From Dastarcus helophoroides (lineage: Eukaryota > Arthropoda > Insecta > Coleoptera > Bothrideridae), in NCBI GenBank assembly GCA_028583605.1, contig CM053335.1:12379553-12443552 (forward strand): DNA of 64,000 bases, read 5' to 3'. The notes under the pieces were generated by a model. It did not search any database. It was not told the origin of the DNA and worked only from the letters and a program-made list of their open reading frames with translations. A program made the translations under genes and the position numbers. This document shows positions 3,589 through 61,932 of the stretch, piece after piece (the first letter of the stretch is position 1; each line of letters begins with the position of its first letter).

Positions 3589-3722
3589 ATTATTTAATTT
3601 AATACGCTGTTCTGTAATAATAGCAGTAGACGAAAGTAAATATAGAAAACAACATTTAGAATCCAAAAACTGTATTAAATTATTTTGTCTTCAAAATTTG
3701 AAATAATACACGGTGTTGAACT

Positions 3723-3931
3723 TTAATTTTGTTTGTTGACATTTCTGCGACCCATTTTGGAAATATTTAAACTTTTAGTGATGAAAGTTAACAATATTTT
3801 AAGACATTTTTCGAAATATCGCTAGGTAATATCATATTTCGAAAAATGTTTCAGAATATTGTGCTTTTGTTATCGTTACTAAAAATTTATATATTTCAAA
3901 ACTGGGTCGCGGAAATGTTAAATAAAATTAA
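3723..3931. mobile_element. Family A element, palindromic (fold-back) copy
   Basis: The left half and the reverse complement of the right half match over roughly 95 bp each around a short centre near 3822-3832. The arms contain GACATTTCTGCGACCCA on the left and TGGGTCGCGGAAATGTTA on the right. Each arm is a diverged version of the 3' end of family A, seen at 6776-7018, 55934-56074 and 58528-59214 (GGCCCAGTTTGGAAATATTTAAA core). Similarity to the 6.8-kb copy continues rightward to about 3985. It reads as two family A ends joined head to head. Confidence 0.65.
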
Positions 3932-3985
3932 TCAAGCTAATGTTTCCGATCTACAAGAGTCTACTTTGAAGAATAAACTTTAATT

Positions 3986-6775: not shown

Positions 6776-7018
6776 CAAAAAAACAAAAATTTTTATTTTT
6801 TCCATATCTAATTTTTGGTCTCCTATTTTTCATTATTCCTATTCTATGTAAAATAAAATAATCTCTTAATTTGTGAACTGTCATGAAGTGACATTTTCAA
6901 TAAATTTAAATGTCACGTAGTCGCATTTCAAAAACTGTTTAGAAAATTGTCAACAAACCATAAAAATTTAAACATTTCCAAACTGGGCCGAAGAAATGTT
7001 AAATAAATTGAAGAAAAA
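6776..7018 (+). mobile_element. Family A retroposon copy A2, 5' truncated
   Basis: The plus strand matches the reverse complement of the 58.5-kb element over its last 240 bases or so. Landmarks are TTTTTGGTCTCCTATTTTTC, AACTGTCATGAAGTGAC, ACAAACCATAAAAATTTAAA, GGGCCGAAGAAATG and the A-rich end AAATAAATTGAAGAAAAA. The 5' part, including the hammerhead, is missing and replaced by the CGATATA array. Similarity to the 3.9-kb element continues to about 7055, where the next 7-bp array starts. Confidence 0.75.
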
Positions 7019-7055
7019 CATAATATTTCCGGTCAATAAGGGTCTACCATGAAGA

Positions 7056-8165
7056 ATATACAACATACAACATACAACATGCAACATGCAACATACAACA
7101 TACAACATACAACATACAACATACAACATACAACATACAACATACAACATACAACATACAACATACAACATACAACATACAACATACAACATACAACATA
7201 CAACATACAACATACAACATACAACATACAACATACAACATACAACATACAACATACAACATACAACATACAACATACAATATACAAGATACAATATACA
7301 ACATACAATATACAACATACAACATACAACATACAATATACAATAAACAATATACAACATACAATATACAATATACAACATACAATATACAACATACAAT
7401 ACAATATACAATATACAATATACAATATACAATATACAATATACAATATACAATATACAATATACAATATACAATATACAATACACAATATACAATATAC
7501 AATATACAATATACAATATACAATATACAATATACAATGTACAATGTACAATATACAATATACAATATACAATATACAATATACAATATACAATATACAA
7601 TATACAATATACAATGTACAATGTACAATATACAATATACAATATACAATATACAATATACAATATACAATATACAATATACAATATACAATATACAATA
7701 TACAATATACAATATACAATATACAATATACAATATACAATATACAATATACAATATACAATATACAATATACAATATACAATATACAATATACAATATA
7801 CAATATACAATATACAATATACAATATACAATATACAATATACAATATACAATATACAATATACAATATACAATATACAATATACAATATACAATATACA
7901 ATATACAATATACAATATACAATATACAATATACAATATACAATATACAATATACAATATACAATATACAATATACAATATACAATATACAATATACAAT
8001 ATACAATATACAACATTCAATATACAACATACAACACACAACACACAACACACAACACACAACACACAACACATAACACACAACACACAACACACAACAC
8101 ACAACACACAACATACAACATACAACATACAACATACAATATACAACATACAATATACAATATAA
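7056..8165. repeat. 7-bp array in zones (ATACAAC, ATACAAT, ACACAAC)
   Basis: A 1.1-kb array with one 7-bp register and changing variants: ATACAAC to about 7275, mixed to about 7390, almost pure ATACAAT to about 8010 with rare ATGTACA interruptions near 7537 and 7614, ACACAAC at about 8030-8110, then mixed again. All six frames are open and encode YNIQYTI or CILYIVY style repeats, up to 425 codons; none is a gene. Confidence 0.97.
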
Positions 8166-8255
8166 AACATACAAAATACAATCATACAATATAAAATCAT
8201 ACAATATAAAATCATACAGAATACAATCATAGAATATACAATCATACAAAATACA
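8166..8255. repeat. 15-bp minisatellite, inverted relative to 1-2250
   Basis: About six units of the type AATCATACAATATAA or AATACAATCATACAA. They are the reverse complement of the 15-bp unit that fills 1-2250. They lie between the 7-bp array and family B copy B1. Confidence 0.8.
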
Positions 8256-16000: not shown

Positions 16001-19000
16001 AACGAAAGAAGGAACAAACAAGAAAAGAAATGAACAAAGGAACAAGCTAACGAAGAAACGAAGGAACGATAACAAACGAACGAAGGAACAAACGAAGGAA
16101 CGAACGAAGAAATGAACGAAGGATAGAACAAAACAAGGAACGAAGAAAAGAAGGAACGAACGAAGGAACGGGGGAAGAAACGGGTGAAGGAAGAAACGAA
16201 GGAAGAAAGGAACAAAGAAAGAAAATAATGAACAAATCAAGGAACGAACGAAGGAAGAAACAAACGTAGAAAGGAACAAATGGACGAAGGAACAAATGGA
16301 CGAAGGAAGAAACGAAGGAAGAAACGAAGGACGGAACGAAGGCAGTAAGGAAGGAAGAAACAAAGGAGGGAATAAACGAAGAAAGAAACGAATAAAGGTA
16401 GCAACGAACAAAAGAAGGAACAAACGAACAAAGTAATGAACAAAAGAACGAACGAAGGAATGAGCAAATGAAGGAACGAAGGAAGAAAAAAACGAACGAT
16501 AGAACGAAAGAAGGAAAAAACGAACGAAGAAATAAAAGAAGGAAGGAACGAACGAAGAAACAAATAAAGGAACAAACAAACACAGAAACGAACGAAGGAA
16601 CGAACGAACGAAGAGGCAAATAAACGAAAGAACGAACGTAGGAAAGAGCAAATATAGAAACGAAATAAGAAAGAAACGATTGAATGAACGAAAGAAGGAA
16701 GGAACCAAGAAAGGAACGAACGACGGAAGGAAGGAAAGAGGAAACGAACGAGGGAAAGAACAAACGAAGGAACGAACGAAAGAACAAACGGAGGAAGGAA
16801 TGAACGAAAGAAAGAACTAACGAAAGGAGGAACTAACAAAAAAATGAACGAAGAAAGAAACGAACAAAGGAAGGGCAAACAAAGAAACGAAAAAAAAAAG
16901 AAAGAAACGAAAGACAGAAAGAAGAAAAAACGAACGAAGAAATGAAAGAAAGAAGGAACGAACGAAGAAACAAATAAAGGAACGAACAAACAATCGGATA
17001 AATCAACAAACAAAGAAAAGAACGAACCAAGGAACGAATGAAGAAAGAAACGAAAAAGAAATGGAAGGAGAGAAGAAAGAAATAACCAACGTAGGATTAA
17101 ATGAAGGAAGAAACGAATAAAGGCAGGAACGAACGAAAGGAGGAACGAACGAAAAAAGGAATAAACAAACGAAGAAACGAAGGCACGAAAACAAACGAAC
17201 GAAGGAACAAACGAAGGAACGAAGGAAAGAACAAAAGAATGAAAGAAGGAACGAACAAAGGAAGGAACGGAGGAAGAAACGGACGAAGGAAGAAACGAAG
17301 AAAGAAAAGAATAAAAAAAGGAAATAACAAACAAATCAAGGAACGAACGAAGGAAGAAACAAACGCAGACAGGACCAAATAAAGGAAGAAACAAACGAAG
17401 GAGGGAACGAAGGAAGGAACGAAGGAAGAAATGAAGGAAGAAACGAAGGAAGAAACGAAGGAGGGAATAAACGAAGAAAGGAACGAATAAAGGCAGGAAC
17501 GAACAAAAGAAGAAACGAACGAAAAAAATAATGAACAAAAGAACGAACGAAGGAACGAGCAAATGGTAGAATAAACGAAGGAACGAACGAAGATAAATAA
17601 ACACAAGAACGACAGAAGGAACGAACGAACGAAAAAGCGAACAAACGAAAGAACGAACGTAGGAAAGAACAAATAAAGATCCAAAATAAGAAAGAAGCGA
17701 TTGCATGAACCAAAGAAGGAAGGAGTAAAAAAAGGAACAAATGACGGAGGAAAAAAAGTAAGAACGAACGAGGGAAAGAAGAAACGAAGAAATGAACGAA
17801 AGAACAAACGAAGGAAGGAATGAATGAAAGAAGGAACTAACGGAGGGAGCAACTAATAAAGAAATGAACGACTAGAGAACGAACAAAGAAAGAAACGAAC
17901 AAAAGATGGGACAAATGAAGGAACGAGAGAAAAAAAACGAGCAATAGAACGAAAGAAGAAAAAAACGAACGAAGAAATGAAAAAAGGAAGGAACGAACGA
18001 AGAAACAAATAAAGGAACAAACAAAGGATCGGATAAACGAAAGAAGAAATGGAAGGAGACAAGAAAGAAATAACGAACGTAGGAACAAACGAAGGAAGAA
18101 ACGAAGAAAGAAACGAATAAAGGCAGGAACCAACGAAAGAAGGAACAAACGAACAAAGGAACAAGCAAACGAAGAATCGAAGGAAGGAAGACAAACGAAC
18201 GAAGGAACAAACGAAGAAACGAACGAAGAAATGAACGAAGGAAAGAACAAAGAAGGAACCAAGGAACGAACGAAGGAACGAACGAAGGAAGGAATAAATC
18301 AGAACAAAACGAAAGAAAAACGAACGAAAACAAAGAAGAAGAAAAACGAAGAGAAACGAAGGAAAAACGAAGAAGAACGAAGAAAAAACAAGAAGTAAAT
18401 GAAGAAAGAAGAAGAACACAGGAACGAACGAAAGAGAACGAACGAAGAGAAGAAAAAACGAACGAAGGAAACGAAGGAGAAGAAGAACGAACGAAGGAAC
18501 AAACGAAGGAACGAAGGAAGAACAAAAAGGAAACGAAACGAAAGAAAAACGAACGGAAGAAGAAAGAAAAAGGAAGAAACAAACGAAGGAAGAAAGAAGG
18601 AAGAACGAAGAAGAACAACGGAAAAGAAAACAATAGAACGAAGAAGAAGAACAAACAGACAGACAAACGAAGGAAGAAAAACGAAGAAGAACGAAGAAAG
18701 AAGAAGGAACAAACGAAGGAAGAACGAAGGAACGAACAAGGAACGAACGAAAAGAACGAAAAGGAAACGAAAACGAAGAGAAACGAAGGAAAAACGTGGA
18801 AGCGAACGAATGAAAGAAAAACGAACGAATGAAGGAAAGAAAAAAGGAATGAACAAAAAAAGGAATGAAAAAAGGAAGGAACGAACGAAGGAACAAACGA
18901 AAGAAACAATGAACGAAGGAAGGAACAAACGAAGTTACCAACGAAGGAACGAATAAACATATAAACGAACGAAGACAAACGAAGGAAGGAACAAACGAAG

Positions 19001-19160
19001 GTACGAACGAAGAAACGAACGAAGGAACGAACGAAAGAACGAACGAAGTAACGAACGAAGGAACGAATGAACGAAGAAACAAACGAAGGAAGGAACGAAG
19101 AAAGAAACCAATCAAATAAGGAACGAAGAAAGGAACGAAGTAAGAAAATAAATAAATAAA
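13090..19160. repeat. 6-kb GAAN tetranucleotide array
   Basis: Nearly every 4-bp step is GAAC, GAAG or GAAA on the plus strand, giving purine-rich DNA. Minus-strand frames read FVPSF or FVRSF repeats, up to 697 codons, and are artefacts. A non-tetrameric signature, TAGGAAAGAG, recurs at 13351, 13593, 14129, 14421, 15414, 16639 and 17660, so blocks of 0.24 to 1.2 kb have been copied. The part at 18300-18800 is richer in GAAGAA. Confidence 0.97.
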
Positions 19161-22894: not shown

Positions 22895-24095
22895 CAATGG
22901 AAGAGAAGAGAAGAAAAGAGAAAGGAAGAGAAAAGAAGAGAAGAGATGGAAGGGAAAGAAAAATGAGGAAAGAAAAAATGGGAACGGAAAAAGAATAGAA
23001 AAAAGAGGAGAGAAGTGAAGGGAAGAAAAGAGGAAGAGAAGAGAAGGAAAGAGAGAGAGAAGAGAAGAGAAGAGAAGAGAAGAGAAGAGAAGAAGAGAAG
23101 AGAAGAGAAGAGAAGAGAAGAGAAGAGAAGAGAAGAGAAGAGAAGAGAAGAGAAGAGAAGAGAAGAGAAGAGAAAGAAGAAGAGAAGAGAAGAGAAGAGA
23201 AGAGAAGAGAAGAGAAGAGAAGAGAAGAGTAAGAGAAGAGAAGAGAAGAGAAGAGAGAGAAGAGAAGAGAAGAGAAAGAGAGAGAGAAGAGAAGAGAAGA
23301 GAGAAGAGAAGAGAGAAGAGAAAGAGAAGAGAAGTAGAAAGAGAAAGAGAAGAGAAGAGAAGAGAAGAGAAGAAAAGAGAAGAGAAGATAAGAGAAGAGA
23401 ATAGAAAGAGAAGAGAAGAGGAAGAGAAGAGAAGAGAAGAGAGAGGAGAAGAGAAGAGAAGAGAAGGAAGGAGAAGAGAAGAGAAGAGTAAGAGGAGAAG
23501 AGAAGAGAAAGAGAAGAGAAGAAGAGAAGAGAAGAGAAGAGAAGAAGAGAAGAGAAAGAGAAGAGAAGAGAAGAGAAGAGAAGAGAAGAGAAAGAGAAGA
23601 GAAGAGAAGAGAAGAGAAGAGAAGAAGGAAGAGAAGAGAAGAGAAGAGAAGAGAAGAGAAGAGAAGAGAAGAGAAGAGAGAGAGAAGAGAAGAGAAGAGA
23701 AGAGAAGAGAAGAGAAGAGAAGAGAAGAGAAGAAAAGAGAAGAGAAGATAATGAGAAGAGAAGATAAGAGAAGAGAAGAGAAGAGAAGAGAAGAGGAGAA
23801 GAGAAGAGAAGAGAAGAGAAGAGGAGAGAAGAGAAGAGAAGAGAAGAGAAGAGAAGAGAAGAGAAGAGAAGAGAAGAGAAGAGAAGAGAAGGAAACAAAA
23901 CAGAGGAGAAGAGAAGAGAAGAGAAGAGAAGAGAAGGAAACAAAACAGAGGAGAAGAGAAGAGAAGAGAAGAGAAGAGAAGAGAAGAAAAGAGAAGTGAC
24001 GAAAAGGGAAAGGGAGAAGGGATGGAAGGTAGGAAGGAAATAGAAGGAAGAGAAGGGAAAAAATGGAAGGGAAGGGTAAAGAAGAAAAGAGAAAC
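22895..24095. repeat. 5-bp purine array (AGAAG on plus strand)
   Basis: Nearly pure AGAAG from about 23040 to 23995, with looser GGAA-rich edges. A 46-bp step repeats GGAAACAAAACAGAGG at 23891 and 23937. The frames read REEKR or SSLLF repeats and are not genes. Confidence 0.97.
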
Positions 24096-25912: not shown

Positions 25913-28900
25913 TCTCTCTCTCCTTCTTCTCTCTTCTCTTTCACTCTCCCTCTTAATAGCCTGTAAATTGTATTTTCTCTCTTCTCTCTTCCCTCTTCTC
26001 TCTTCTTTCTTTTCTCTTCTCTGTTCTCTCTTCTCTCTTCTCTTTTCTCTCTTCTCTCTTCTCTCTTCTCTCTTCTTTCTTCTCTGTTTATCTTTTCTCT
26101 TTTCTCTTCTCTGTTCTTTTTTCTCTCTTCTCTCTCCTCTCTTATCTCTTTTCCCTTTTCTCTCTTCTCTTCTCTTCCTATTTCTCTTATTTCCTATCTT
26201 CGTCTTCCCTTCCCTTCTCTTATTTTCTCTTCTCTATTCTTCTCTTTTCTTCTCTTCTCTCTTCTCTCTTCTCTCTTTCTCTCTTCTCTCTTCTTTCTTC
26301 TCTCTTCTCTCTTCTCTCTTCTCTCTTCTTTTCTTCTTCTCTCTTCTCTCTTCTCTCTTCTCTCTTCGCTCTTCTTCTCTCTCTTCTCTCTTCTCTCCTT
26401 CTCTCTTCTCTCTTCCTCTCTTCTCTCTTCTCTCTTCCCTTTTCTCTCTTCTCTCTTCTCCTTCTCTCTTCTCTATCTATCTTCTCTCTTCTCTCTTTCT
26501 TTTCTTCCTGTCTCTCTTCTCTCTTCGCTCTTCTGCTCTTCTTCTTCTCTCTCTCTCTTCTCTCTTCTCTCTTTCTTCTCTCTTCTCTCTTCTCGCTTCT
26601 CTCTTCTCTCTTCTCTCTTCTCTCTTCTCTCTTCTCTCTTCTCTCCTTCCTCTCTTCTCTCTTCTCTCTTCTCTCTTCTCTCTTCTCTCTTCTCTCTTCT
26701 CTCTTCTCTCTTCTCTCGTCTCTCTTCTCTCTTCTCTCTTCTCTCTTCTCTCTTCTCTCTTCTCTCTTCTCTCTCTCTCTTCTCTCTTCTCTCTTCTCTC
26801 TCTCTCTTCTCTCTTCTTCTTCTCTCTTCTCTCTTCTCTCTTCTCTCTTCTCTCTTCTATCTTCTCTTATCTATTCTCTCTTCTCTTCTTCTCTCTTCTC
26901 TCTTCTCTTCTTCTCTCTTCTCTCTCTTCTCTTTCTTTTCCCTTCTCTCTTCTCTCTTCTCTCTTCTCTCTTCTCTCTTCTCTCTTCTCTCTTCTCCCTT
27001 CTCTCTTCTCCGCTTCTCTCTTCTCTCTTCTCTCTCTCTACTCTCTCTCTCTCTCCTTCTCTCTTCTCTCTTCTCCTTCTCTATCTTCTCATTTCTTCTC
27101 TCTTCTCTCTTCATTCTTCTCTTCTTCTTTCTCTTCTCTCTCTTCTTCTTCTCTCTTCTCTCTTTCTCTTCTCTCTTCTCTCTTCTCTTTTCTTTCTCTC
27201 TTCTCTCTTCTCTCTTCTCTTTCTCTCTTCTTCCTCTCTTCTCTCTTTCTCTCTCTCTTCTTCTTATCTCTTTCTTTCTTTTCTTCTCTTCTTCTTCTCT
27301 TCTCTTTTCTCTCTTCTATCTTCTCTTCTTCTTTCTTCCCTTCTCTCTTCTCCTTCTCTCTTCTCCTCTCTCTTCTCCTTCTCTCTTTCTTTCTCTCTTC
27401 TCTCTTCTCTCTTCTCCCTTCTCTCTTCTCTCTTCTCGTCTTCTCTCTTCTCTCTTCTCTCTTCTCTCTTCTCTCTTTTCTTCTCTCTTTCTCTCTTCTC
27501 TTCTTTTTCTTTTCTCTCTTCTCTCGTTCTTCTCCTTCCTTCTCTCATTCTCTCTTCTCTTCTTCTCTTCTTCTCTCTTCTCTCTTCTTTTCTTCTCTTT
27601 CTCTTTCCTTCTCTCTTCTCTTCTCTTCTCTATTTTTTCTTTCTCTTCTCTCTTCTCTTCTCTTTCTTTTCTCTCTCTTCCTCTTCCTCCTTCTTTTCTT
27701 CCTTCTTCTCTCTTTCTCTTTTCTTTCTCTTCTCTCTCTCTCTTCTCTTCTTCTCTCTTCTTTTCTTCTCTTTCTCTTTCTCTCTTCTCTTCTTCTCTCT
27801 TCTATCTCTTTCTCTTCTCATCTTCTTCCCTTCTCTCTCTTCTCTCTTCTTTTCTTTCTCTCTTCTCTAGCTCTTTCTCTTCTTCTCTCTTCTCTCTTTT
27901 CTTTCCTTCCTTCTCTCTTCTCTCTTCTCTCTTTCTTTTCCTTTCTCTTTCTTTTCTCTCATCTCTCTACCTTCTTTTCTTCTTTCTCTTCTTTTCTTTT
28001 CCTATTCCTTCTCTTTTATCCTTTCTTTTTATTTTCTTCTCTCTTCTCTTCTATCTTCTCTCATCTCTCTCTTTCTCTCTTCTCTCTTTACTCTTTTCTA
28101 CTTTTCCCTTTTTCTTTTCTTTTCTCTTCTCTTCCTTTTCTTTCATTTCCTATCTTATCTTCCATTTCCTTCTCTTATTTTCCCTTCTCTATTCCTTCTC
28201 TTTTCTTCTCTTCTCTCTTCTACTCTTCTCTCTTCTCTTCTTCTCTCTTTCTCTTTCTCTTTTCTCTTCTCTCTTTCCTTCATCCTTTTCTTCCTATCTT
28301 CTCTCTTCTCTTCTCTCTCTTTCTCTCTTTCTCTTTTCTTTCTTTCTCTTCATCTTCCTATTTCTTTTATTTCCTATCTTAGCTCTTCCATTTCCTTCTC
28401 TTATTTTCCTTCCCTATTCTTTTTTTTCTTCTCTTTCTCTTCTCCTCTTCTTTCTTATATCTTCTCTCTTCTCTCTTCTCTTCTCTCTCTCTCTTCTCTT
28501 CTCTATCTCTCTTCTCTCTCTCTTCTCTCTTCTCTCTTCTCTTCCTCTCTTATCTCTTTTCCCTTTTCTCTCTTCTCTTCCTATTTCTTTTATTTCCTAT
28601 CTTCGTCTTCCCTTCCCTTCTCTTATTTTCTCTTCTCTATTCTTCTCTTTTCTTCTCTTCTCTCTTCTCTCTTCTTTGTTCTCTCTTCTCTCTGTTGCTC
28701 TTTTCCCTTTTCTCTCTTCTCTTCTCTTCCTATTTTTTTCTTTCCTTTCTGCGTCTTCCCTTCTCTTCTCTTTTCTCTCCCCCTTCCTTCCTCCCCCTCT
28801 CTATCTTCCCATCTATTTTTTTTCCTTCTTTTCTCTTCTCGTCCCGTCTCGTCTCTTCTACTGTCTTCTTGTCTCTTTTTGTTTTTTCTTATCCTGTCTC

Positions 28901-30112
28901 TCTTCGTTCTATCTCTTTCCTTCCCAACTCTTCCCTTCCTATCTCTTCTTTTCTTTTTTCTTCTCTTCCTAGCTTTTCCCTTCTTATCTCTTCTCTTTTC
29001 TTCGCTTCTCTTCTCTTATCGTTTCTTTTCTTTGCTTTCTTTTTCCCATCTCTTCTACTCTCTTCTTTTCTCTTCTTTTCTCTTCTTTTCTATTTTCTTT
29101 TCTTCTCATCTCTTCTCTTTCTAACTCTTTTGTTTTTAACTCTTTCTTTCTCATCTCTTCCCGTCCCATTTTTTCTCTTCGCATCTCTTCTTTTTCCATC
29201 TCTTCTCTTCATTTCTCTTCTCTTTATTTTGCTTCCTATCTTTTCACTTCCTTTTCCTTCTCTTTCCTTTCCATCTCTTCCATTTCCATCTTTTCTCTTC
29301 CCTTTCCTTCTTTTCCCTTCTCTTCTCTTCTCTTTTTTTCTTCTGTTCTCTTCTATTTTCTAGTCTTTCTTTACTTCGGTTCCTAAGTTTTCTGTTTCCT
29401 TCTCCTTTCTTTCCTTTCCATCACTTTTCTTCCTATCTCCCCTCTTCTCTTCTCTGCCTTGTCTTCTCTTCTTATCTTATCTCTTCTCTTTCTATTTTTT
29501 CTTTCCTTCCCATCTCTTTCCATCTCATCTCTTTTCTTCGCATCTCTTCCTTTTCCATCTCTTCTTTTCTATTCTCTTCTCTTCACTTCTCTTTCCTTCT
29601 CCTCTCTTCTCTTCCCTTCTCTTTTCTTTTTTTTGTTCTCTTCTATTATCTTTTTTAGTCTTTTTTTCTCTTTACTTTGCTTTACAATTTTTTTCTTTCA
29701 TTCTCATTTCTTTCCTTTCAATTTCTTCCCTTTCCTTCACATTTTCTCTTCTTTTTTTTCTGTTTTCTTTTCTTCTCTTCTTTTTTTCTCTTGTTTTCTC
29801 TAGTCTTCTCTTCTCTAGGCTTTTTTTCTCTTCCCTAGTTCTCTCCTTTCTTCTGTTTTTTACTCATTTCTTTTCTTCTGTTTTCTTTTTTTCTCTAGCC
29901 TCCTCTTTTCTTTTCTTTTTTTTTCTAGTCTTCTCTTCTCTTCTTTAGCCTTTTCTTCTCTAGTCTTATCTTTTCTTGTTTTTTCTTCTTTTCTCGTTGC
30001 TTCCTATCTCTTCTCTATCCATCTTCTCTTTTTCTATCTCTTCTCTTCACTTCCCATCTGTTCTCTTCTTTTCTCTTCTTTTTTCTTCTCTTCTATCCTC
30101 TTTTCTTTTTTC
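25913..30112. repeat. 4.2-kb pyrimidine array (TTCTCTC, then TTCTC-like)
   Basis: Plus-strand C/T array. From about 25.97 to 28.7 kb the main unit is the 7-mer TTCTCTC; later the unit loosens to TTCTC, TTTTC and CCATCTC variants. An apparent 804-codon plus-strand frame of S, L and F is produced by the repeat. Confidence 0.97.
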
Positions 30113-31539
30113 TTTCCCATTGATAGCCCATAATTTATATTTAAATTTTGTTTGAAAAAGGTTGCGGTGCAAAATTTTGACGCTTTCTCAATTATGGTAA
30201 TCGTTAATTGATTTTGCACTTTGTTCAGTGAATTCAGTGACAACAACATCAAAAAGTTGAATAAGATGAGAATTTCGATAGGACTGCTTTATAAGGTCGC
30301 ATCGTGGTAGTCCTCAACAGAGGTCTAAGCCTTGCTCAAGTAAATACGAGTAGAACCTTACTTTTACTTTATCGGTTCTGGTCATCTCTAACTGAGCTTT
30401 ACCAAAGGAATAATACATCAACCTTTTTAACAACATCCATAAATTGCATACATTTCTAGCTTTAGCAAGCACTAAATCAAATCAGAATCTTCTTATTTTG
30501 GGGCAGTTTTGAGCTCTATGACGATAATTTACATCAAGTTTCGTCCTCTTATGCAGGAGAGCTATGAAATCTCTTGCACCTACTTTTTTAAAACTTTCTT
30601 TTCTACAGGAGGTTTCTTCGATGGTAGCAGCATCCTCTCTGTAAAATCTCGAAGAGTAGTATCTTCTTGAGCTCTAAAGATTTGAAGAGTACTATCTTTT
30701 TGAACTTTAAAATCTTAAAAAGTATTCTTCTACAAATAAACATCAACACGTGTTTTGGGAAACACCAGAATCTTGAAAGATTTTTTGAAAATCACCTCGC
30801 TTTTTCCATTGTTCTGCTAACGTAAAGTTGATATAAATTAATGCCACTAAAAAATTAAACCATTCTGATGGTTTAGGTTTTAAGAAATTGGTCTTCCAAT
30901 TTCTGAAGGGAACTTTGTTAACACGCTAAAAAATTTTTGAAAACGTAGTAATGTTAATGGGGAACAGTCGCGTATTAACATTTTTTAGAGATTTGCAGCA
31001 AAATTGAAGGTACACGTAACACGAACAGTAATAAATTTTGACCTTCATACTAGAGTTAAATGAGTAGAATTTGGTATGCATGTAGTTCAGATGATTTATA
31101 ACGTTTTGTAAATATTTGGAAAAGTTCCAGACAATAAAGATGATTGATGATGTGACGAAAAAGTTAAACTAAAATATACAAGCATTATTCCAACCTATTG
31201 TATGCACGTTTGTTGGACTATTGAGATAAATATTTATTCGGCTATTTCAGAATAGAGATTTCAGTAATAAAACGTTTTTTGTAATAAAATAATCAGGAAA
31301 ACATTTCGATGTCATAAAACGAAAACATTTCCACTTCCTTTGACAATTGAGGTAGAACATAAACCTCCTTAAGGTTGTTATTAGATGCACTCGTCTAGTT
31401 TGGTCGAGACAAGAAAATATCGCCATTTTCATCAATTTTTTTAGACAGTTAAATATGCAAGAAGGAGACGCAGCCTAAAAATGTCGTCATTTTGTCTTTT
31501 AGGTACCTTCCATAACTTCCAAATCTTCTAAAAGTACCA
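30113..31539. other. Non-repetitive intergenic DNA
   Basis: No open frame or RNA gene is supported. Short imperfect hairpins occur, for example AACCATTCTGATGGTTT near 30860. Confidence 0.45.
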
Positions 31540-33464: not shown

Positions 33465-34001
33465 GTGGTCAAAATGCAACTCTACCTCTGGAACGTCGAC
33501 GACAGACGCGAAGAGCACATATCCCTGAAGCTCCCAGATGGCACCTACATCAGCTACTGGCCTCGCAACGAAAAAGAAAAAACTTTCTGGAAAGTAGGCC
33601 CGGCCCACACCTACAAAGAAGACGTCATCATCGAAGGCCGAAAACCCCACCACACGCTCTATCTCCCCGATGAGATGGCCAGCGTCACCAAGATGAAACT
33701 GTGGTGGTGCAAGTATCGTACCACTTTCGAAAATAACACCAGTAACTCCGCCGAGATCATCAGGCAAGCGTTACTGGAGGGTGGCATTTTGGAACCGACG
33801 AAATTGTCCGAGGATATCAACGCTGGGAATGTGTTCAGTTGGGCTCACGATTGTAAGAAATTTTTTCTGGGCTATTACAAGCCGAAGGTGGTGCTGAAGT
33901 CGAGAGAGACTTTCAAGTCTAGTAGAGCGGGGCATCCGATTTTTACGTCTGTGGGGGCGTCGATGATCGAGAGTTTTTATAAGCGTCAGAGTTCCAAGTG
34001 A
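33465..34001 (+). CDS. Uncharacterised protein exon, possibly papain-like-fold domain
   Basis: This is the one stretch with real coding character: clearly less AT-rich than its flanks, mixed amino-acid composition, an acceptor AG directly upstream, and AATAAA 80 nt after the stop. The first ATG in the exon (33474) gives 175 residues; the exon could also continue an upstream one. Seen in the protein: EEHISLKL with His15, DGTYISYWP at residues 22-30, EGRKPHH near 54-60, a KLWW segment at 75-78, and AEIIRQALLEGG at 93-104. From memory, this order resembles papain-like or NlpC/P60-like domains in which a His strand precedes an N-C-S helix. Here the expected Cys site reads NNTSNS, so a protease would be inactive. 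The function is unknown and the fold is a guess. There is no signal peptide or membrane segment. Confidence 0.75.
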   Translation: MVKMQLYLWNVDDRREEHISLKLPDGTYISYWPRNEKEKTFWKVGPAHTYKEDVIIEGRKPHHTLYLPDEMASVTKMKLWWCKYRTTFENNTSNSAEIIRQALLEGGILEPTKLSEDINAGNVFSWAHDCKKFFLGYYKPKVVLKSRETFKSSRAGHPIFTSVGASMIESFYKRQSSK

Positions 34002-35031: not shown

Positions 35032-35096
<65 letters not shown>

Positions 35097-35097
35097 T

Positions 35098-35186
<89 letters not shown>

Positions 35187-35250
35187 TTAAGTAACTCACC
35201 AATTAACCAATAACTAACTAACTAACTAACCAACCAACCAACCAACAAAC
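35028..35250. repeat. AACT tetranucleotide array grading into AACC
   Basis: Almost pure AACT from 35028 to about 35185, then interrupted AACT, then about five AACC steps at 35226-35247. Confidence 0.97.
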
Positions 35251-35263
35251 CAAATAACTAACT

Positions 35264-35536
35264 CAGAAACAAACAAACAAACAAACCAACAAACAGACAA
35301 ACAAACAAACAAACAAACAAACAAACAAACAAACAAACAAACAAACAAACAAACAAACAAACAAACAAACAAACAAACAAACAAACAAACAAACAAACAA
35401 ACAAACAAACAAACAAACAAACAAACAAACAAACAAACAAACAAACAAACAAACAAACAAACAAACAAACAAACAAACAAACAAACAAACAAACAAACAA
35501 ACAAACAAACAAACAAAGAAACAGACAGACAGACAG

Positions 35537-35575
<39 letters not shown>

Positions 35576-35900
35576 AACAGACAAACAGACAAACAGACAA
35601 ACAGACAAACAGACAAACAGACAAACAGACAAACAGACAAACAGACAAACAGACAAACAGACAAACAAACAAACAAACAAACAAACAAACAAACAAACAA
35701 ACAAACAAACAAACAAACAAACAAACAAACAAACAAACAAACAAACAAACAAACAAACAAAAAACACAAAAACAAACAAACAAACAGAGAGACAGACAGA
35801 CAGACAGACATACAGACAGACAGGCAGACAGGCAGACAGACAGACAGACAAACAGACAAACAAGCAAACAATCAAACAAACAAACACACAAACATTCAAG
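35264..35900. repeat. AAAC / AGAC tetranucleotide array
   Basis: AAAC to about 35515, AGAC at 35520-35570, an alternating 8-bp AGACAAAC unit at about 35570-35663, AAAC again to about 35762, then mixed AGAC and AAAC. Minus-strand frames read CLFVCLFV and are artefacts. Confidence 0.97.
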
Positions 35901-45833: not shown

Positions 45834-46045
45834 AAATTGTGTCACCTGAAACCAAAAGAAATTAAAAAACACCACAAAGGTTGCTCTAATGCGTTTCGAT
45901 AGCGATACTGGTATCTCTCTGAAGATGATAATTTGGCTTTCGAAAAGCGTTAGAGCAACCTTTGTTGTATTTTTTAATCTTTCTTGGTTTCAGAGGACAA
46001 GATTTGAAATTTTTGAAGATAACCAAGGACCAGTCCATCTCATCA
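45834..46045 (+). mobile_element. Family B element B6 in tandem unit C
   Basis: Near-complete fold-back. Left arm from TCACCTGAAACC to TCGATAGCGATACTGG; right arm from CTCTCTGAAGATGATAAT to ATAACCAAGGACCAGTCC. Helix II has drifted (GATAAT/GCTTTC). Confidence 0.85.
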
Positions 46046-46531: not shown

Positions 46532-46639
46532 CGTTTTCTCTCTAAAGATGAGAGCTTGGCTGTCGAAACGCGTTCGAGCAACCTCTGTTGTGTTTTTTAA
46601 TCTTTCTTGGTTTCAGGGGACAAGTTCTGTGTTTCAAAT
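46532..46639 (+). mobile_element. Family B fragment B7, right half
   Basis: CTCTCTAAAGATGAGAGC through GAAACGCGTTCGAGCAACC to GGTTTCAGGGGACAAG. The distal AACCAAGGACC end is missing. Confidence 0.75.
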
Positions 46640-47112
46640 AAATTCGAATTGCAATCAGGTGAAAAAGGTTTACTAATATAAAAATGTAAACAACCTGGAT
46701 ACGTCTGGTTTAACCCTTCTCTGATTATAAAGTTTAGGAAAAATTCAAAATTTTGTATACTTTCAAACTTTTGGGAAAAGATAAGATTTCATGAAAATTT
46801 CGATAATTAGGGAAAAATTTTTAAATTTTGGTAAAAACGCGAGATTTGGGGAAAAAGTATAAAGGTTTAAGAAAAATCCAGATTTTTAACAAAATTAGAA
46901 ATTCTCAGAAAAATTCGATGGTCAAAATTTAGAAAAATATTGACATTTTCATATTAAAATAAATATAATAAATAAATATGAATTTTCAATATAAAGTTTT
47001 CCCAAATATAATTCTAAAAATGTCGATTTTTCAAAAAGCGTTGCAATTTTGAGAAACAGTAAAAAAATTTAAGAATTCTGTAGGAGTTTTGAAGAGATTT
47101 AATATGGAAATA

Positions 47113-47296
47113 AATTGAAAAACAAACTTGTCCCCTGAAACCACGAAAGATTAGAAAACACAACGAAGGTTGCTCTAATAAAGATGCATCGAAATGCGTT
47201 GGAGCAACCTTTGTTTTATTTTTTAATCTTTTTTGGTTTCAGGGGACAAGATTTGTATTTTAATTTTTGAAGATAACCAAGGACCAGTCCATTTCA
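47113..47296 (+). mobile_element. Family B element B8, core deleted
   Basis: The left arm (TTGTCCCCTGAAACCACG to GGTTGCTCTAAT) and right arm (GGAGCAACCTTTG to AACCAAGGACCAGTCC) are present. The hammerhead-like core is replaced by a short AAGATGCATCGAAATGCG. Confidence 0.8.
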
Positions 47297-47440: not shown

Positions 47441-47533
47441 AGTAAGTAAGTAAGTAATTAAGTAAGTAAGTAAGTAAGTAGTAAGTAAGTAAGTAAGTAA
47501 ATAAGTAAGTAAGTAAGAAATTAAGTAAGTAAT

Positions 47534-47601
<68 letters not shown>
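47441..47601. repeat. GTAA tetranucleotide array
   Basis: Tandem GTAA or TAAG with a few ATTA interruptions. It starts within a family C copy (after AAAGATGCTGATA) and ends directly at the first codon of the Penelope-like fragment. Confidence 0.97.
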
Positions 47602-47949
47602 GATAAAGTAGAGCAAACAGATAAGTCTGGTATTTACCAAATTTCATGTAGGGATTGTCCTCAAAAGTATGTTGGACAAACTAGACGATCTCTTAAAATC
47701 CGACTCAAAGAACATTTGGCTCATTTGAGGTACGGAAGAACTGAGAAGTCAAGTGTGGCTCGACATGCTTTTGAATTAGATCATAGGATAGATAATGATA
47801 TTAAATTGTTAAGAGTAGTTAATAAGAATTATATGTTAAATGCATGTGAGAGCTTAGCCATCCATAAGGCTGGAAACAACCTTATGAATGGTTGCGCTGG
47901 ACCTTTAGGCCATTCATCCCTGTTAAAAATAGTTAAGGTTGATAGATAA
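47602..47949 (+). mobile_element. Penelope-like element, GIY-YIG endonuclease fragment (5' truncated)
   Basis: An open frame of 115 codons ending in TAA at 47947, entered without a start from the GTAA array; an internal ATG at 47716 is not the true start. It reads GIYQISC at residues 10-16, a Cys pair (C16, C19), then KYVGQT at 22-27, R28, R29, R34 and EH at 37-38, and later NACESLAIHK with a candidate catalytic Glu. This is the GIY-YIG nuclease that Penelope-like elements carry after their reverse transcriptase, used to cut target DNA. The reverse transcriptase is absent. The domain itself has no stop or frameshift, so the insertion may be fairly young. The 3' side runs about 115 bp into the family B terminus. 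Confidence 0.88.
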
Positions 47950-48065
47950 GAAATTGTGACACAACGACGTGTATGATTGGATGCGCGTTCGGGTGCGGCC
48001 GATCACACACGAAGTGAATATTCTTAGTATATAAGGGTTAATTTTAAGATTAGATGTTAGTTTCT
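47950..48065 (+). mobile_element. 3' untranslated part of the Penelope-like fragment
   Basis: Sequence between the TAA and the family B terminus, less AT-rich than its surroundings (GATGCGCGTTCGGGTGCGGC) and with a TATATAAGG near 48029. It is not found elsewhere in the window. Confidence 0.5.
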
Positions 48066-48110
48066 CTAATTTGTATTTCAATTTTTGAAGATAACCAAGG
48101 ACCAGTCCAT
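48066..48110 (+). mobile_element. Family B terminus B9, downstream of the Penelope-like ORF
   Basis: TTTGTATTTCAATTTTTGAA and GATAACCAAGGACCAGTCC, the rightmost part of family B only. It is either the shared 3' terminus of the Penelope-like element or the remnant of a B copy it inserted into. Confidence 0.8.
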
Positions 48111-54544: not shown

Positions 54545-54990
54545 TTGAAATGTTTTTTTTTTATGAAACGAACTGGTCCTTGGTTATCTTCAAAAATTGA
54601 AATATACATCTCAGTATCTCTTTGAAGATGATAGCTTGGCTATCGAAACGCGTATACTCATTTTCCGAGTGTCTGTCAATTCAAGGTCTTTAGGAGAATT
54701 TAAAGAGCCGCAATTGTATTTTAAAAGAGCCTCATGTGGCTTGCCAGCCGTGGTTTGCCGACCCCCTGCCTTAGAGCAACCTTTGTTGTGTTTTCTAATC
54801 TTTCTCTGTATCTTTCTGAAGATGATAGCTTGGCAATCGAAACGCGTTAGACCAACCTTTGTTGTATTTTTCAATCTTTCTAGTATCTCTCTGAAGATGC
54901 TAGCTTGGCTATCGATACGCATTAGAGCAACCTCTGTTGTATTTTTTAATCTTTCTTGGTTTCAGGGGACAAGATTTGTATTTCAATTAT
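54545..54990 (+). mobile_element. Family B element B15, three tandem hammerhead-like monomers
   Basis: Left terminus (CTGGTCCTTGGTTATCTTC), then three successive copies of a unit of about 75 bp running from T/CTGAAGATG through AGCTTGGC, the GAAAC region, AGAGCAACC and TTTGTTGT to AATCTTTCT. The cores begin at 54622, 54816 and 54891. The first is split by a 117-bp insert; without it the first step is 77 bp and the second is 75 bp. The last monomer continues to GGTTTCAGGGGACAAG. Confidence 0.8.
54654..54770. mobile_element. Probable hAT transposon end inserted in B15
   Basis: 117 bp absent from sister copies. Read on the minus strand, the right end begins CAGGGGGTCGGCAAACCACG, followed by GGCTGGCAAGCCACATGAGG and CTCTTT. 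This is the terminal style of Charlie-like hAT elements as I remember it. A matching left terminus and the 8-bp target duplication are not visible, so it is a fragment. Confidence 0.5.
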
Positions 54991-54999
54991 TGAAATGTT

Positions 55000-57835
55000 T
55001 CCAAAAATTTTGAATTTCTACCAAAATTTCTCCAAGAGCGTGAATTTTTGCTCTAAATTTCAAACTGTGACGAAAATTTTGTATTTTTATTTTAGAATTT
55101 AAAATCATTTTCCCGAAGTTGAAATTTTTTCCAAAATATTGACTTTTTTCCAGACCTTAAATTTTGGAATTTTTCATAAAAATTTGTGTTATTTCCAAAA
55201 ATATAAATCTCTTCGTCAAATTTTATTACCTCTTAAAATTTTGAATATTTTTCAAAATTCAAAATCCTCCTTTCCAAAACTTATAAATTTATTTAATCGA
55301 ATTTTTGCGAAAAATTTGAAATTCAAATTTTGAAAAATTGAAATCTCCTTAAAATTTAATTTTTTCCTAAAATTTTGAATGTTTCTCAAGATTTCAAATT
55401 TTTTTCAAAATTTATAAATTTTTTCCAAAGTTTCACAGTTTCTCTAAAAGATATCAAATTTCTTTAAAAATTTCTAGTTTTGTTATCTCGATATTTTATG
55501 AAAATTTCAGATTTTTCTCAAAGTTTTAAATTTTTTCATAAAATCTCACGTTTCTTCCAAAGCTTATAAATTTGTCCCATAGGTTCAAAATGTTAAAATA
55601 TTTCAAATTTCTCCCAACATTTCTAATTTTGCTAAAAATCTCGATTTTTTATACAAAATCTTGATTTTTCACACAAAATCTTGATTCTTTATACTAAATC
55701 CTGATTTTTTATAAAAAATCTTGATTTTTTTAATACAAAATCTCGATTTTTTTTATACAAAATCTCGATTTTTTTTGTAGAAAATATTGATTTTTATACA
55801 AAATCTTGATTTTTATACAAAATCCTAATTTTTTCCCAAAAATTCAGACGTTTTTTCAAAGCTTTGTATTTGTTCATAAGATCTCACCTTTTTTCCAAAG
55901 CATATAAATTAGTCCCAAAGTTTAAAAATTTCGTTTTTTTCAATTTATTTAACATTTCTTCGGCCCAGTTTGGAAATATTTAAATTTTTATGGTTTGTTG
56001 ACAATTTTCTAAACAATTTTTGAAATGCGACTACGTGATATTTAAAATTTATTGAAAACGTCACTTCAAGACAGTTTAAAAATTTCGTTAAAATATATAG
56101 AATTTGTCTCAAAGTTTCTAATTTTAATAAAAATATCGATTTTTTCTCAAAACTTCGTATTTTTGCTCAAAATATTACGTTTTTCCCAAAATTTATAAAT
56201 TTTTCCCAACGTTTCTTTAAAATATATCGAATTGTAATTTCCACTTTTGTTAATTCTCCTTAAAATCTTAATCTTTTGCTCTTAATTTCATACTTTCCCC
56301 AAAATTTCCATTTCCTTCCAGAATTTAAAAATATTTTTCCGAAATTTGAATTTTTGTCTAAAATATTTATTTCTCCCAAAATCCCAAACTTTTTCCAAAA
56401 TTTCGAAATCTTCATAAAATTTCGCTTTTTTCTAATTTTGCTAAAAATCTCGATTTTTCATACAAAATCTTGATTTTTCACACAAAATCTTGATTCTTTA
56501 TACAAAATCCTGATTTTTTATAAAAAATCTTGATTTTTTAATATAAAATCTCGATTTTTTTTATAGAAAATATTGATTTTTATACAAAATCTTGATTTTT
56601 ATACAAAATTTTGATTTTTTTCCCAAAAATTCAGACTATTTTCAAAGCTTTGTATTTTTTCATAAGATCTCACGTTTTTTCCAAAGCATATAAATTAGTC
56701 CCAAAGATTCAAAATTTCGTTAAAATACATAGAATTTGTCTCAAAGTTTCTAATTTTGTTAAAAATATCGATTTTTTTTCAAAACTTCGTATTTTTGCTC
56801 AAAATCTTACGTTTTTCCCAAAATTTATAAATTTTTCCCAACGTTTCTTTAAAATATATCGAATTGTAATTTCCATTTTTGTTAATTCTCCTTAAAATGT
56901 TAAGCTTTTGCTCTTAATTTCATACTTTTCTCAAAATTTCCATTTCCTTCTAGAATTTAAAAATATTTTTCCGAAATTTCGAATTTTTGTCTAAAATATT
57001 TATTTCTCCCAAAATCCCAAATTTTTTCCAAAATTTCGAAATCTTCATAAAATTTCGCGTTTTTCTAATTTTGCTAAAAATCTCGATTTTGCTAAAAATC
57101 TCGATTTTTCATACAAAATCTTGATTTTTCACACAAAATCCTGATTTTTTATAAAAAATCTTGATTTTTTTAATACAAAATCTCGATTTTTTTAATAGAA
57201 AATATTGATTTTTATACAATATCTTGATTTTTATACAAAATCTTGATTTTTATACAAGATCTTGATTTTTATACAAAATCTTGATTTTTTCCCAAAAATT
57301 CAGACTTTTTTCAAAGCTTTGTATTTGTTCATAAGATCTCACGTTTTTTCCAAAGCATATAAATTAGTCCCAAAGTTTCAAATTTTCGTTAAAATATATA
57401 GAATTTGTCTCAAAATTTCTAATTTTGTTAAAAATATCGATTTTTTCTCAAAACTTCGTATTTTTGCTCAAAATCTTACGTTTTTTCCAAAATTTATAAA
57501 TTTTTCTTAACGTTTCTTTAAAATATATCGAATTGTAATTTCAACTTTTGTTAATTCTCTTTAAAATCTTAATCTTTTGCTCTTAATTGCATACTTTCCT
57601 CAAAATTTCCACTTCCTTTCAGAATTTAAAAATATTTTTCCGAAATTTCGAATTTTTGTCTAAAATATTTATTTCTCCCAAAATCCCAAATTTTTTCCAA
57701 ATTTTTGAATTCTTCATAAAATTTCGCATTTTTCCAAAAATTAATCTTTGTAAAATTTCACTTTTTGTCAGACTTTTAAATGTTTTCCAAAATTTCGAAT
57801 TTTTTCCAAAATTTATAAATTTTTCCGAAAATGTT
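55000..57835. repeat. AT-rich higher-order repeat, 630-670-bp unit, about three copies
   Basis: The landmark GTTTCTTTAAAATATATCG occurs at 56211, 56843 and 57512 (steps 632 and 669). Each unit also holds a run of AAAATCTTGATTTTT-AT-AC repeats (about 55640-55830, 56450-56620, 57070-57290) and CATATAAATTAGTCCCAAAG. The first unit is interrupted by retroposon A3. Open frames such as 56611-56895 and 57262-57510 are the same repeat. Confidence 0.85.
55921..56087 (-). mobile_element. Family A retroposon copy A3 with target duplications
   Basis: A perfect 13-bp duplication (TTTAAAAATTTCG at 55921-55933 and 56075-56087) flanks a 141-bp insert. The insert begins with T7 on the plus strand, so on the minus strand it ends in AAATAAATTG followed by A7. 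Sister repeat units at about 56701 and 57375 lack the insert and show the uninterrupted site. It carries only the 3' end of family A and lacks the hammerhead. The poly(A) end, 5' truncation and variable-length duplication are typical of target-primed retroposition. Confidence 0.85.
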
Positions 57836-57842
57836 TGTGTTT

Positions 57843-57988
57843 GGTGGAACGGACTGGTCCTTGGTTATCTTCAAAATTTGTAGTATCTCTCTGAAGATGA
57901 CAGCTTGGCTGTCGAAACGCGTTAGGGCAACGTTTGTTGTGTTTTTTAATCTTTCTTGGTTTCAGGGGACAAGTTCTGTATTTCAATT
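57843..57988 (+). mobile_element. Family B element B16, best-preserved hammerhead-like core
   Basis: Short left terminus, then CTCT (57887-57890), CTGAAGA (57891-57897), an extra T, GACAGC-TTG-GCTGTC (57899-57913), GAA (57914-57916), ACGCGT (57917-57922), T, AGGG. This is the hammerhead order: helix I strand, CUGANGA, helix II, GAA, helix III, UH, helix I strand. Departures are the extra T at the base of helix II and a helix III too short to fold alone, although ACGCGT is self-complementary between two molecules. The right side runs to GGTTTCAGGGGACAAG. Confidence 0.75.
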
Positions 57989-57989
57989 A

Positions 57990-58510
57990 TTCCGAAAATT
58001 TCAAATTTTCTTTTAAAAATTTCAAATCATTACCAAAACTGAATTTTTCCCGAAATTTTGTGTTTTCCCAAAATTTGAAAATTCCTTGAAGTTGTATGTT
58101 TTCCTAAACTTTTGAATGTTTCCCAAAATTTTAAATTTTTCCCAACATTTCCAATTTTCTTTAAAATCTTGAATTTTGTTAAAAAATTCAAATTTTTCTG
58201 AAAATTTCAAATGTTTTTCGGAATTTATTTTGAATTTTTTTCTAAAATTTTGGTTTTTTACCAAAATCTCAGTTTTTTCCAAATTATCGATGTTTTTCCA
58301 AAATTTAAAATTTTTTCTGATAATTATAATTTTACTCCAAATTGCGAATTTTTCTTATTATCTCATTTTCCCACAATTTGAAATGTTTCCCAAAATTTCG
58401 AATTATTGCCAAAATTTCCAATTTCCCTTAGACTCAATTTTATTTTCTAAATTTCAAACTGTTTAAAATTTCGTATTTTTTGGACATTTTAAAATATTTT
58501 CTCGAAATTT
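57990..58510. other. Degenerate AT-rich DNA, no gene
   Basis: Variants of TTCCCAAAATTTCGAAT and similar. No gene. Confidence 0.5.
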
Positions 58511-58514
58511 CAAG

Positions 58515-59227
58515 TTTAATCTAAAGTTTTTTTCAATTTATTTAACATTTCTTCGGCCCAGTTTGGAAATATTTAAATTTTTCTGGTTTGTTGACAATTT
58601 TCTAAACAGTTTTTGAAATGTGACTACGTGATATTTAAATTTATTGAAAACGTCACTTCATGACAGTTCACAAATTAAAAGGTTAGTTTATTTTACATAG
58701 AATAGGAGTAATGAAAAATAGGAGACCAAAAATTAGATATGGAAAAAATAAAAATTTTGTTTTTTTGATAAATTAGGAAAATATAAATAAAAAATACATA
58801 AAAAGGTTGTAGCACTGGACATCGATGTTTCGCTCTCATTTAAGCTCGTCAGCAGTGCATAACATGGAAAGGAAACAATGAGGAAGAAATACTTAAAATT
58901 AAAAAATTTTTTTAAAATATAAAAAAGAAAAATAAAGAAATTTAACATGAATAGACGTTTCATCATCAATTTACTGTGTTAAAAATTTACTGTGTTAAAA
59001 ATTTAAATATTTGAAGCCCGATCCACAAGAAACAACTACTCCGAGGGCTAATACCCCTTCCGGCATTGAACTACACTTGTGGGTCGAACTTATATGCTCT
59101 TGGTGACTACTGTTCCTAACCGCTGAAATCTATTCAGCTTGGTAGTTAGAAGCACTCACCATTTGCGGAGTCCGTTCGTTCCGTTAGAGGAATAGGTTTA
59201 TTCTTCATGAAGAATTTAATCTAAAGT
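58515..59227 (-). mobile_element. Family A retroposon A4, full-length copy with hammerhead
   Basis: A perfect 13-bp target duplication, TTTAATCTAAAGT, at 58515-58527 and 59215-59227 flanks 687 bp. Read on the minus strand, the element starts TCTTCATGAAGAATAAACC. It continues through a structured, less AT-rich 5' third with GTTCGACCC (B-box-like) and a 7-bp pair CCACAAG/CTTGTGG, then the hammerhead, then the 3' part shared with copies A1 to A3, and ends in a short A-run. It has no long open frame, so it must move with borrowed enzymes. A near-exact tandem pair of TTTACTGTGTTAAAAA lies at about 58970-59003. Confidence 0.88.
58806..58867 (-). ncRNA. Type I hammerhead ribozyme
   Basis: Minus strand, 5' to 3': helix I strand GCACUG (58858-58853), core CUGACGA (58852-58846), helix II GCUU-AAAUGA-GAGC (58845-58832), GAA (58831-58829), helix III ACAUCGAUGU (58828-58819), cleavage-site C (58818), helix I strand CAGUGC (58817-58812). 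All conserved core residues are present: C3 U4 G5 A6, G8 A9, G12 A13 A14, and a GUC cleavage triplet. Helix I is 6 bp and resumes with UGU/ACA beyond an internal loop, where tertiary contacts usually lie. Helix III is short (3 bp with loop UCGA), as known for Penelope-like and retrozyme hammerheads. Predicted cleavage is between 58818 and 58817. Confidence 0.9.
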
Positions 59228-61677: not shown

Positions 61678-61932
61678 TTTGATGGAACGGACTGGTCCTT
61701 GGTTATCTTCAAAAATTGAATTACAGAACTTGTCCCCTGAAAGCAAGAAAGATTAAAAAACACATCAAAGGTTGCTCTAACGCGTTTCGACAGCCAAGCT
61801 GTCATCTTCAGAGAGAAACAGTTTCTCTCTGAAGATGACGGCTTGGCTATCGAAACGCGTTAGAGCAACCTTTGTTGTGTTTTTTAATCTCTTTTGGTTT
61901 CAGGGGACAAGTTCTGTATTTCAATTTCTAAA
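61678..61932. mobile_element. Family B element B17, near-complete fold-back
   Basis: The left arm runs from GGAACGGACTGGTCCTTGG to CTGTCATCTTCAGAGAGAAAC, the right arm from GTTTCTCTCTGAAGATGACG to GGTTTCAGGGGACAAGTTCT and GTATTTCAATTT. The arms are inverse copies over about 110 bp around a centre near 61820, so the transcript could fold back along nearly its whole length. Both arms carry a hammerhead-like core, one per strand. Confidence 0.85.

Follow-up and report, generated by a model that had tools for sequence, protein, structure and literature searches.

A protein-less hammerhead repeat family in Dastarcus helophoroides: a probable retrozyme-like satellite of Penelope-type machinery

Introduction

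The described systems closest to the family reported here are Penelope-like elements (PLEs), retrozymes and an insect satellite. According to the accessible text on the Anolis PLE (PAc), reverse transcription begins at two adjacent internal sites, the stretch between which is the genomic tail of 30-40 bp; the enzyme cuts and extends both strands, the hammerhead cleaves only with protein, and in vitro PLE work found no start-site difference between the strands (PMC11167929). The PLEs of Adineta (A. vaga) are reported to carry inverted pseudo-LTRs (pLTRs), one of which bears a 31-bp tail, and to show duplications of 8-10 bp (PMC3846280). Authors working on retrozymes proposed PLEs as their likely mobilisers, on the basis of shared type I hammerheads and co-occurrence (PMC7229834, PMC7761336), and double-hammerhead cleavage was proposed for pDo500 of Dolichopoda cave crickets (PMC2837043).

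Here, we analyzed a repeat family of the beetle Dastarcus helophoroides, starting from one copy in a 64,000-nucleotide stretch of contig CM053335.1 (the window), in which an earlier note made from the letters alone had placed a type I hammerhead ribozyme inside a non-autonomous retroposon. The family resembles the PLEs of Anolis (PAc, PMC11167929) and Adineta (Pen, PMC3846280) in its partial tandems, inverted truncated arms, tail of 30-40 bp at one end and duplications, and the Anolis element also in having the hammerhead in the repeated part (PMC11167929). It differs from PLEs in that its unit lacks an ORF for reverse transcriptase and GIY-YIG, and in the position of the cut, 292 nt upstream of the SHORT end (see below). 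A further difference concerns the hammerhead, in which helix III is 3 bp long and the helix I loop is HH9-like; the hammerheads of PLEs have been described as minimal (PMC7761336). Like the metazoan non-LTR retrozymes, as far as these are characterized in the accessible text (PMC7229834, PMC7761336), it is non-coding and AT-rich, contains a type I hammerhead, stands head-to-tail and has duplications of >4 bp; however, its unit of 712 nt exceeds the ~150-450 nt given there, and inverted arms and a two-ended tail are not among the retrozyme features described in that text. It shares with pDo500 the presence of a hammerhead in an insect repeat, but pDo500 is a satellite and the present family consists of dispersed two-ended insertions (PMC2837043). 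By end structure the family would be placed with PLEs, and by content (non-coding, type I hammerhead, head-to-tail) with retrozymes. No description of such an element was found in the openly accessible literature (mainly titles and abstract openings).

The hammerhead motif in the window

The minimal motif occupies 58812-58858 on the minus strand, where the earlier note had located a hammerhead with a complete core, and each part named there could be seen in the sequence. Read from 58858 to 58812, it has a helix I of 6 bp (GCACTG/CAGTGC) followed by the core CTGACGA, a helix II of 4 bp (GCTT/GAGC) followed by the core GAA, and a helix III of 3 bp (ACA/TGT) with a UCGA loop, together with the triplet GTC (GUC in the RNA). 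Helix II closes with a U.G pair, in contrast with the C-G pair of most sampled family copies. An outer GUU/AAC stem with an internal loop lengthens the motif to 58806..58863, and the predicted cut, 58818|58817, coincides with that of the note.

At gathering thresholds, Rfam reported no hammerhead across the window, only a tRNA. A full-sensitivity scan of 1001 b matched RF02275 (Hammerhead_HH9) at 58867-58795 with 35.7 bits and E 4e-7. The Rfam check that the note had suggested for the minus strand thus gave a match with a low E-value but a score under the gathering score of 52. The alignment spans all 77 model positions, including the non-core loop residues UUA and UAC. Across the family, 28 such matches were distributed over all 18 loci searched, at 30.3-40.3 bits and hence all below gathering; core, helix sizes and the UUA/UAC helix I loop are those of HH9, whereas these scores and the genomic setting are not. 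The setting of HH9 is vertebrate.

A coincidental resemblance to a hammerhead, in a repeat of some unrelated kind, is very improbable as an explanation. A lax, type I-only descriptor found a single site in the window and 4 matches in 300 simulated windows, so that the chance of the motif alone is ~1 in 75 per window, and the fold is not favoured thermodynamically (see below). By itself the motif is therefore suggestive. Against coincidence stand the HH9 E-value of 4e-7 per kb, with loop residues beyond the core included, the recognisable motif in diverged relatives and, above all, its conservation in many copies: 54 of the 65 examined, the window copy included, retain every core position, the three helices and the NUH triplet (GUC). 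These 65 come from 40 fetched loci, 4 overlapping loci being left out; nine are changed (five in core or triplet, four in helix I) and two have indels, one of them outside the minimal motif. On the basis of the copies the window hammerhead is genuine as a predicted motif, and a core substituted in all other copies, an outcome that the note had raised, is not what was found.

Family copies and the 712-nt unit

In a search of the 538.9-Mb assembly (50 contigs), 2646 first-look candidates were obtained, and the 40 that were scored, a biased sample, yielded 87 matches. Among them were 46 near full-length matches at 95-98% identity, including the window's own at 100%, which bears out the expectation of further genomic copies. 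The 35 full copies averaged 97.3% identity, with a best pair at 100%; they come from the best-scored matches and are biased to young copies, and within that bias they agree with the recent activity suggested by the note. Same-strand neighbouring units are 28-31 nt apart in regular cases, the linker being mostly (AC)ATAATATTTCCGGTCAATAAGGGTCTAC, which gives a family unit of 684 + 28 = 712 nt. Units occur singly, as partial tandems and with inverted 5'-truncated arms; in the largest array examined (L031), a 17-nt duplication encloses five units, of which three share one strand and two lie on the opposite one. Flanking ORFs, inspected by eye, give an insect-like impression. No match was obtained when viral and prokaryote contigs were scanned for patterns.

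The window copy comprises 684 nt of the unit (58526..59209, minus strand, delimited by the near full-length matches) and lacks the 28-nt linker that completes the unit in tandem copies; the 687-bp span given in the note is correct for this copy. The longest stop-to-stop stretch in its unit is 81 codons, with no reverse transcriptase plus GIY-YIG ORF, and an exact 13-nt duplication, TTTAATCTAAAGT, lies at 58515..58527 and 59215..59227, the first copy overlapping the SHORT end by 2 nt. Both observations are in line with the non-autonomous retroelement with target duplications that had been proposed. The SHORT end (..GAAAAAAAC), a putative start of reverse transcription, is at 58526..58534 on the minus strand. 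At the other side, CATGAAGAAT (59206..59215, plus strand) was compared by eye with the LONG ends of other arrays and would be a 10-nt inverted LONG-end remnant, sharing with the unit its initial 4 nt via the palindrome CATG.

Three further pieces were recognized in the window. Copy C (55933..56084, minus strand, 95.4%) is a 5'-truncated copy of the 3' part and has a duplication of 17 nt (55919-55935 and 56073-56089); copy B (6776..7057, plus strand, 94.4% over 6776-7027) is 5'-truncated as well and retains the linker and the LONG end. The older relative A (3730..3975) has an inverted arm at 3736-3832 and a direct arm at 3881-3974 that reaches the LONG end, and is flanked by AACTTTAATTT at 3719 and 3976. 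The window also contains long simple-sequence arrays, several of them strongly strand-skewed (6-2246, 7055-8255, 13254-19100, 22900-24093, 25973-30115 and 35032-35894), and a 178-aa ORF (33465-34001) without a Pfam match, for which a protein search of 33465-33998 gave no homologue.

The 5' part of the window copy (59014..59209, minus strand) is a structured region with two predicted stable hairpins (z -3.35 for 59014-59214), within which weak tRNA-like A and B boxes are found at 59130-59081. Schistosome Sm-alpha is a tRNA-derived SINE that holds a hammerhead, and a tRNA-derived SINE mobilised by a LINE, with an incidental hammerhead, would account for the box pair, the structured region and the 13-nt duplication. 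However, the A box has two mismatches (the B box core is exact), pairs of this quality came up at 0.7 per window in 60 simulated windows, and Rfam gave no tRNA match there at E<=5. We know of no LINE or SINE pattern that fits inverted arrays that are two-ended and carry a 38-nt tail. Given the two-ended SHORT/LONG arrays and the duplication statistics presented below, we give this explanation hardly any credence.

Paired ends and target duplications

We examined the outward ends of 39 arrays, leaving out L011, L014, L015 and L019, which overlap with L031 and L012, and arrays that were shorter than 500 nt or reached to within 50 nt of an edge of their locus (L036). Two kinds of end were distinguished, SHORT (..TTGAAAAAAAC; strict limits 680-694) and LONG (..GTCTACCATGAAGAAT; 716-727), the latter ~38 nt longer. 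Both outward ends fell in the strict ranges in 27 arrays, and every one of these 27 combined one SHORT with one LONG end in inverted orientation; neither SHORT+SHORT nor LONG+LONG occurred. With loose limits (any end <=694 as SHORT, any end >=716 as LONG), there were 29 SHORT/LONG arrays, one LONG-LONG (L016) and one SHORT-SHORT (L035), the last two resulting from inverted scraps that end inside the unit. The 12 arrays without two strict ends comprised four with a SHORT and a directly truncated end (L001, which is the window copy, L006, L007 and L034), two with a LONG and a truncated end (L002 and L023), five with one strict end and a 3' end elsewhere (L016 and L035, together with L042, L043 and L044, whose ends at 669, 731 and 696 are just outside the strict limits) and one with neither (L025). 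It should be noted that the second end of the window copy was scored as 5' by the script because its 10-nt inverted arm is too short to be detected.

The best exact duplication was at least 12 nt long in 22 of the 39 arrays, versus 8 of 975 random boundary pairs, and at least 8 nt long in 29 arrays, versus 44 of 975; in L002, the 8-nt match falls in the element's own end. The combination of inverted SHORT and LONG ends with duplications is the published tail signature of PLEs. The earlier note had named PLEs and retrozymes as possible settings, and the insertion signature turned out to be Penelope-like.

A resident autonomous PLE as control

The window itself contains a 5'-truncated copy of a resident PLE (47604..48067, plus strand), made up of an ORF end with GIY-YIG (47593-47946; Pfam E 4.3e-6) and the 3' region. 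Its DNA has 2276 candidates in the genome, and among the 45 matches listed, 41, the window's own included, cover at least 464 bp at 100% (rounded); judging from these sequences, the resident autonomous PLE family is very young. One locus (L085) has an 824-codon stop-to-stop stretch with RVT_1 (1.5e-10) and GIY-YIG (4.4e-5), and L085 and L086 are head-to-head inverted PLE copies of ~4.5 kb. Of 22 resident PLE loci, four had arrays that ran past the edge and nine of the other 18 were two-ended; all nine paired a SHORT with a LONG end, the tail measuring 33 nt and the best duplications 11-18 nt. Since this PLE encodes RVT_1 and GIY-YIG, the end rule is valid for a true PLE in the same genome.

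No PLE sharing the ends of the hammerhead family was found: the resident PLE has a different tail (33 nt) and 3' region, for which reason it is at most a candidate partner, and comparison of the family with the two full PLE loci gave no match with E <0.03. A hammerhead of canonical layout was not found in L085 and L086. Pieces from the termini of the resident PLE (CTGAAGATGAYAGCTTGGCTGTCGAAACGCGTTAG.., ..GAAGATAACCAAGGACCAGTCC) are scattered in both orientations at 45850-46010, 46540-46630, 47110-47260, 54770-54960, 57843-57990 and 61680-61930; by eye, they contain a CTGAAGA...GTCGAAAC that resembles a hammerhead, but helix II is preceded by an additional base and GUC is missing. The PLE fragment of the window starts directly at an AGTA microsatellite (47441-47601), which is perhaps an addition at the 5' junction.

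Conservation and predicted folding of the hammerhead

Over the 53-column hammerhead stretch, divergence was 0.75%, compared with 2.16% elsewhere, and 9.5% of equal-width stretches were as low; the hammerhead is not significantly better kept than the remainder of the unit. Relatives were sought with a query holding the LONG end, which explains why they end at the LONG site (1012 candidates, 20 fetched). In six of the 20, segments 74-86% identical to the window unit extend to the hammerhead. Eight stretches from these six were aligned, six with the whole motif bearing substitutions and two with its 3' part only; L050 and L052 are near twins. A descriptor for an intact core had no match in the 20 relative loci. 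The substituted motif in diverged relatives indicates that the hammerhead is older than the young expansion and has decayed in these older copies. Beside one diverged relative, a minus-strand arm of L064 carries the structured 5' region (unit 29-179) in inverted orientation at 86%, a hint that this region may be common to several subfamilies.

Relative to the ensemble, the predicted hammerhead fold is less favourable by 8.0 kcal/mol in the 684-nt unit, linear or circular, and by 4.1-7.4 kcal/mol in shorter contexts, and by computation it competes with an upstream UGUUUC..CUUUC pairing. The stretch upstream of the hammerhead (58826-58880) can pair with GAGAGCGAAACA inside it, and it is possible that such pairing blocks self-cleavage. 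Helix III is a 10-nt palindrome, ACAUCGAUGU (ACATCGATGT), for which a duplex energy of -12.9 kcal/mol was computed, and the palindrome ACATCGATGT would allow double-hammerhead cleavage of dimers.

Origin and proposed mobilisation of the family

The paired ends, the duplications and a resident PLE following the same rule together point to a non-autonomous retrozyme-like element with PLE-type insertion, and we consider it likely that this 712-nt, protein-less hammerhead family is a satellite of Penelope-type machinery. What speaks against this reading is that no PLE with matching ends came to light, that two strict ends are lacking in 12 of the 39 arrays, that the predicted hammerhead fold is energetically unfavoured, that every Rfam score is below gathering, that the low divergence over the hammerhead is not exceptional, and that the sample of copies is biased. 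A Penelope-type reverse transcriptase-endonuclease would cut the two target strands ~12-15 nt apart; copying of the element RNA would be initiated from the SHORT site (..GAAAAAAAC) on one strand and, 38 nt further, from the LONG site (..CATGAAGAAT) on the other. The resulting pair of cDNAs would then run toward each other and be joined, which would account for the inverted arms, the head-to-tail units and the duplications. The hammerhead would most likely turn multi-unit transcripts into unit RNA, with uncut multi-unit RNA or circles remaining as template. Had cut linear RNA usually served as the template, truncations would be expected to cluster at unit position 392/393, where the cut lies; only one of 52 truncation points was there (at 392), suggesting that copying usually proceeds from RNA that is uncut or has been re-ligated (circular).

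A different origin, to which we assign an appreciable but minority probability, is that the unit is the pLTR (plus ORF start) of an autonomous PLE after loss of the ORF, the hammerhead being a hitch-hiking remnant without a role in the spread. The indifference of truncation points to the cut would agree with this, as would the relatives, which carry ATGTTAAATAAA.. directly before the tail, where PLE ORFs begin, with 22 codons open in copy A; the pLTR plus tail of A. vaga is described as holding the first 12-22 codons (PMC3846280), and hammerhead mutants of the Anolis PLE are reported still to insert in vitro (PMC11167929). However, no long ORF follows the ATGTTAAATAAA start within the element in the translations of L001-L032 and the window (25 commonest) or in the 20 relative loci, and the intact hammerheads in 54 of 65 young copies also speak against a mere remnant, although the motif is not significantly better kept than the remaining unit.

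Within the satellite reading, which we prefer, a broader scheme may be put forward tentatively, although we regard it as less likely than not: animal retrozymes in general would be Penelope satellites, a hammerhead-made RNA circle being copied by the PLE enzyme from two reverse-transcription start sites, one per cut strand. Circles would produce arrays of several full units and no 5' ends at the ribozyme cut, and copying from two fixed starts would give every insertion one SHORT and one LONG end.

Implications

In this genome, many loci carry a non-coding hammerhead element with the PLE end signature, and a young autonomous PLE family obeying the same rule resides alongside it. If the family is accepted as retrozyme-like, its structure would provide more direct evidence for the mobilisation of retrozymes by PLEs. 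In addition, the strict SHORT/LONG pairing, seen in 27 of 27 arrays of the family and 9 of 9 of the resident PLE, bears on the use of two reverse-transcription start sites by PLE enzymes.
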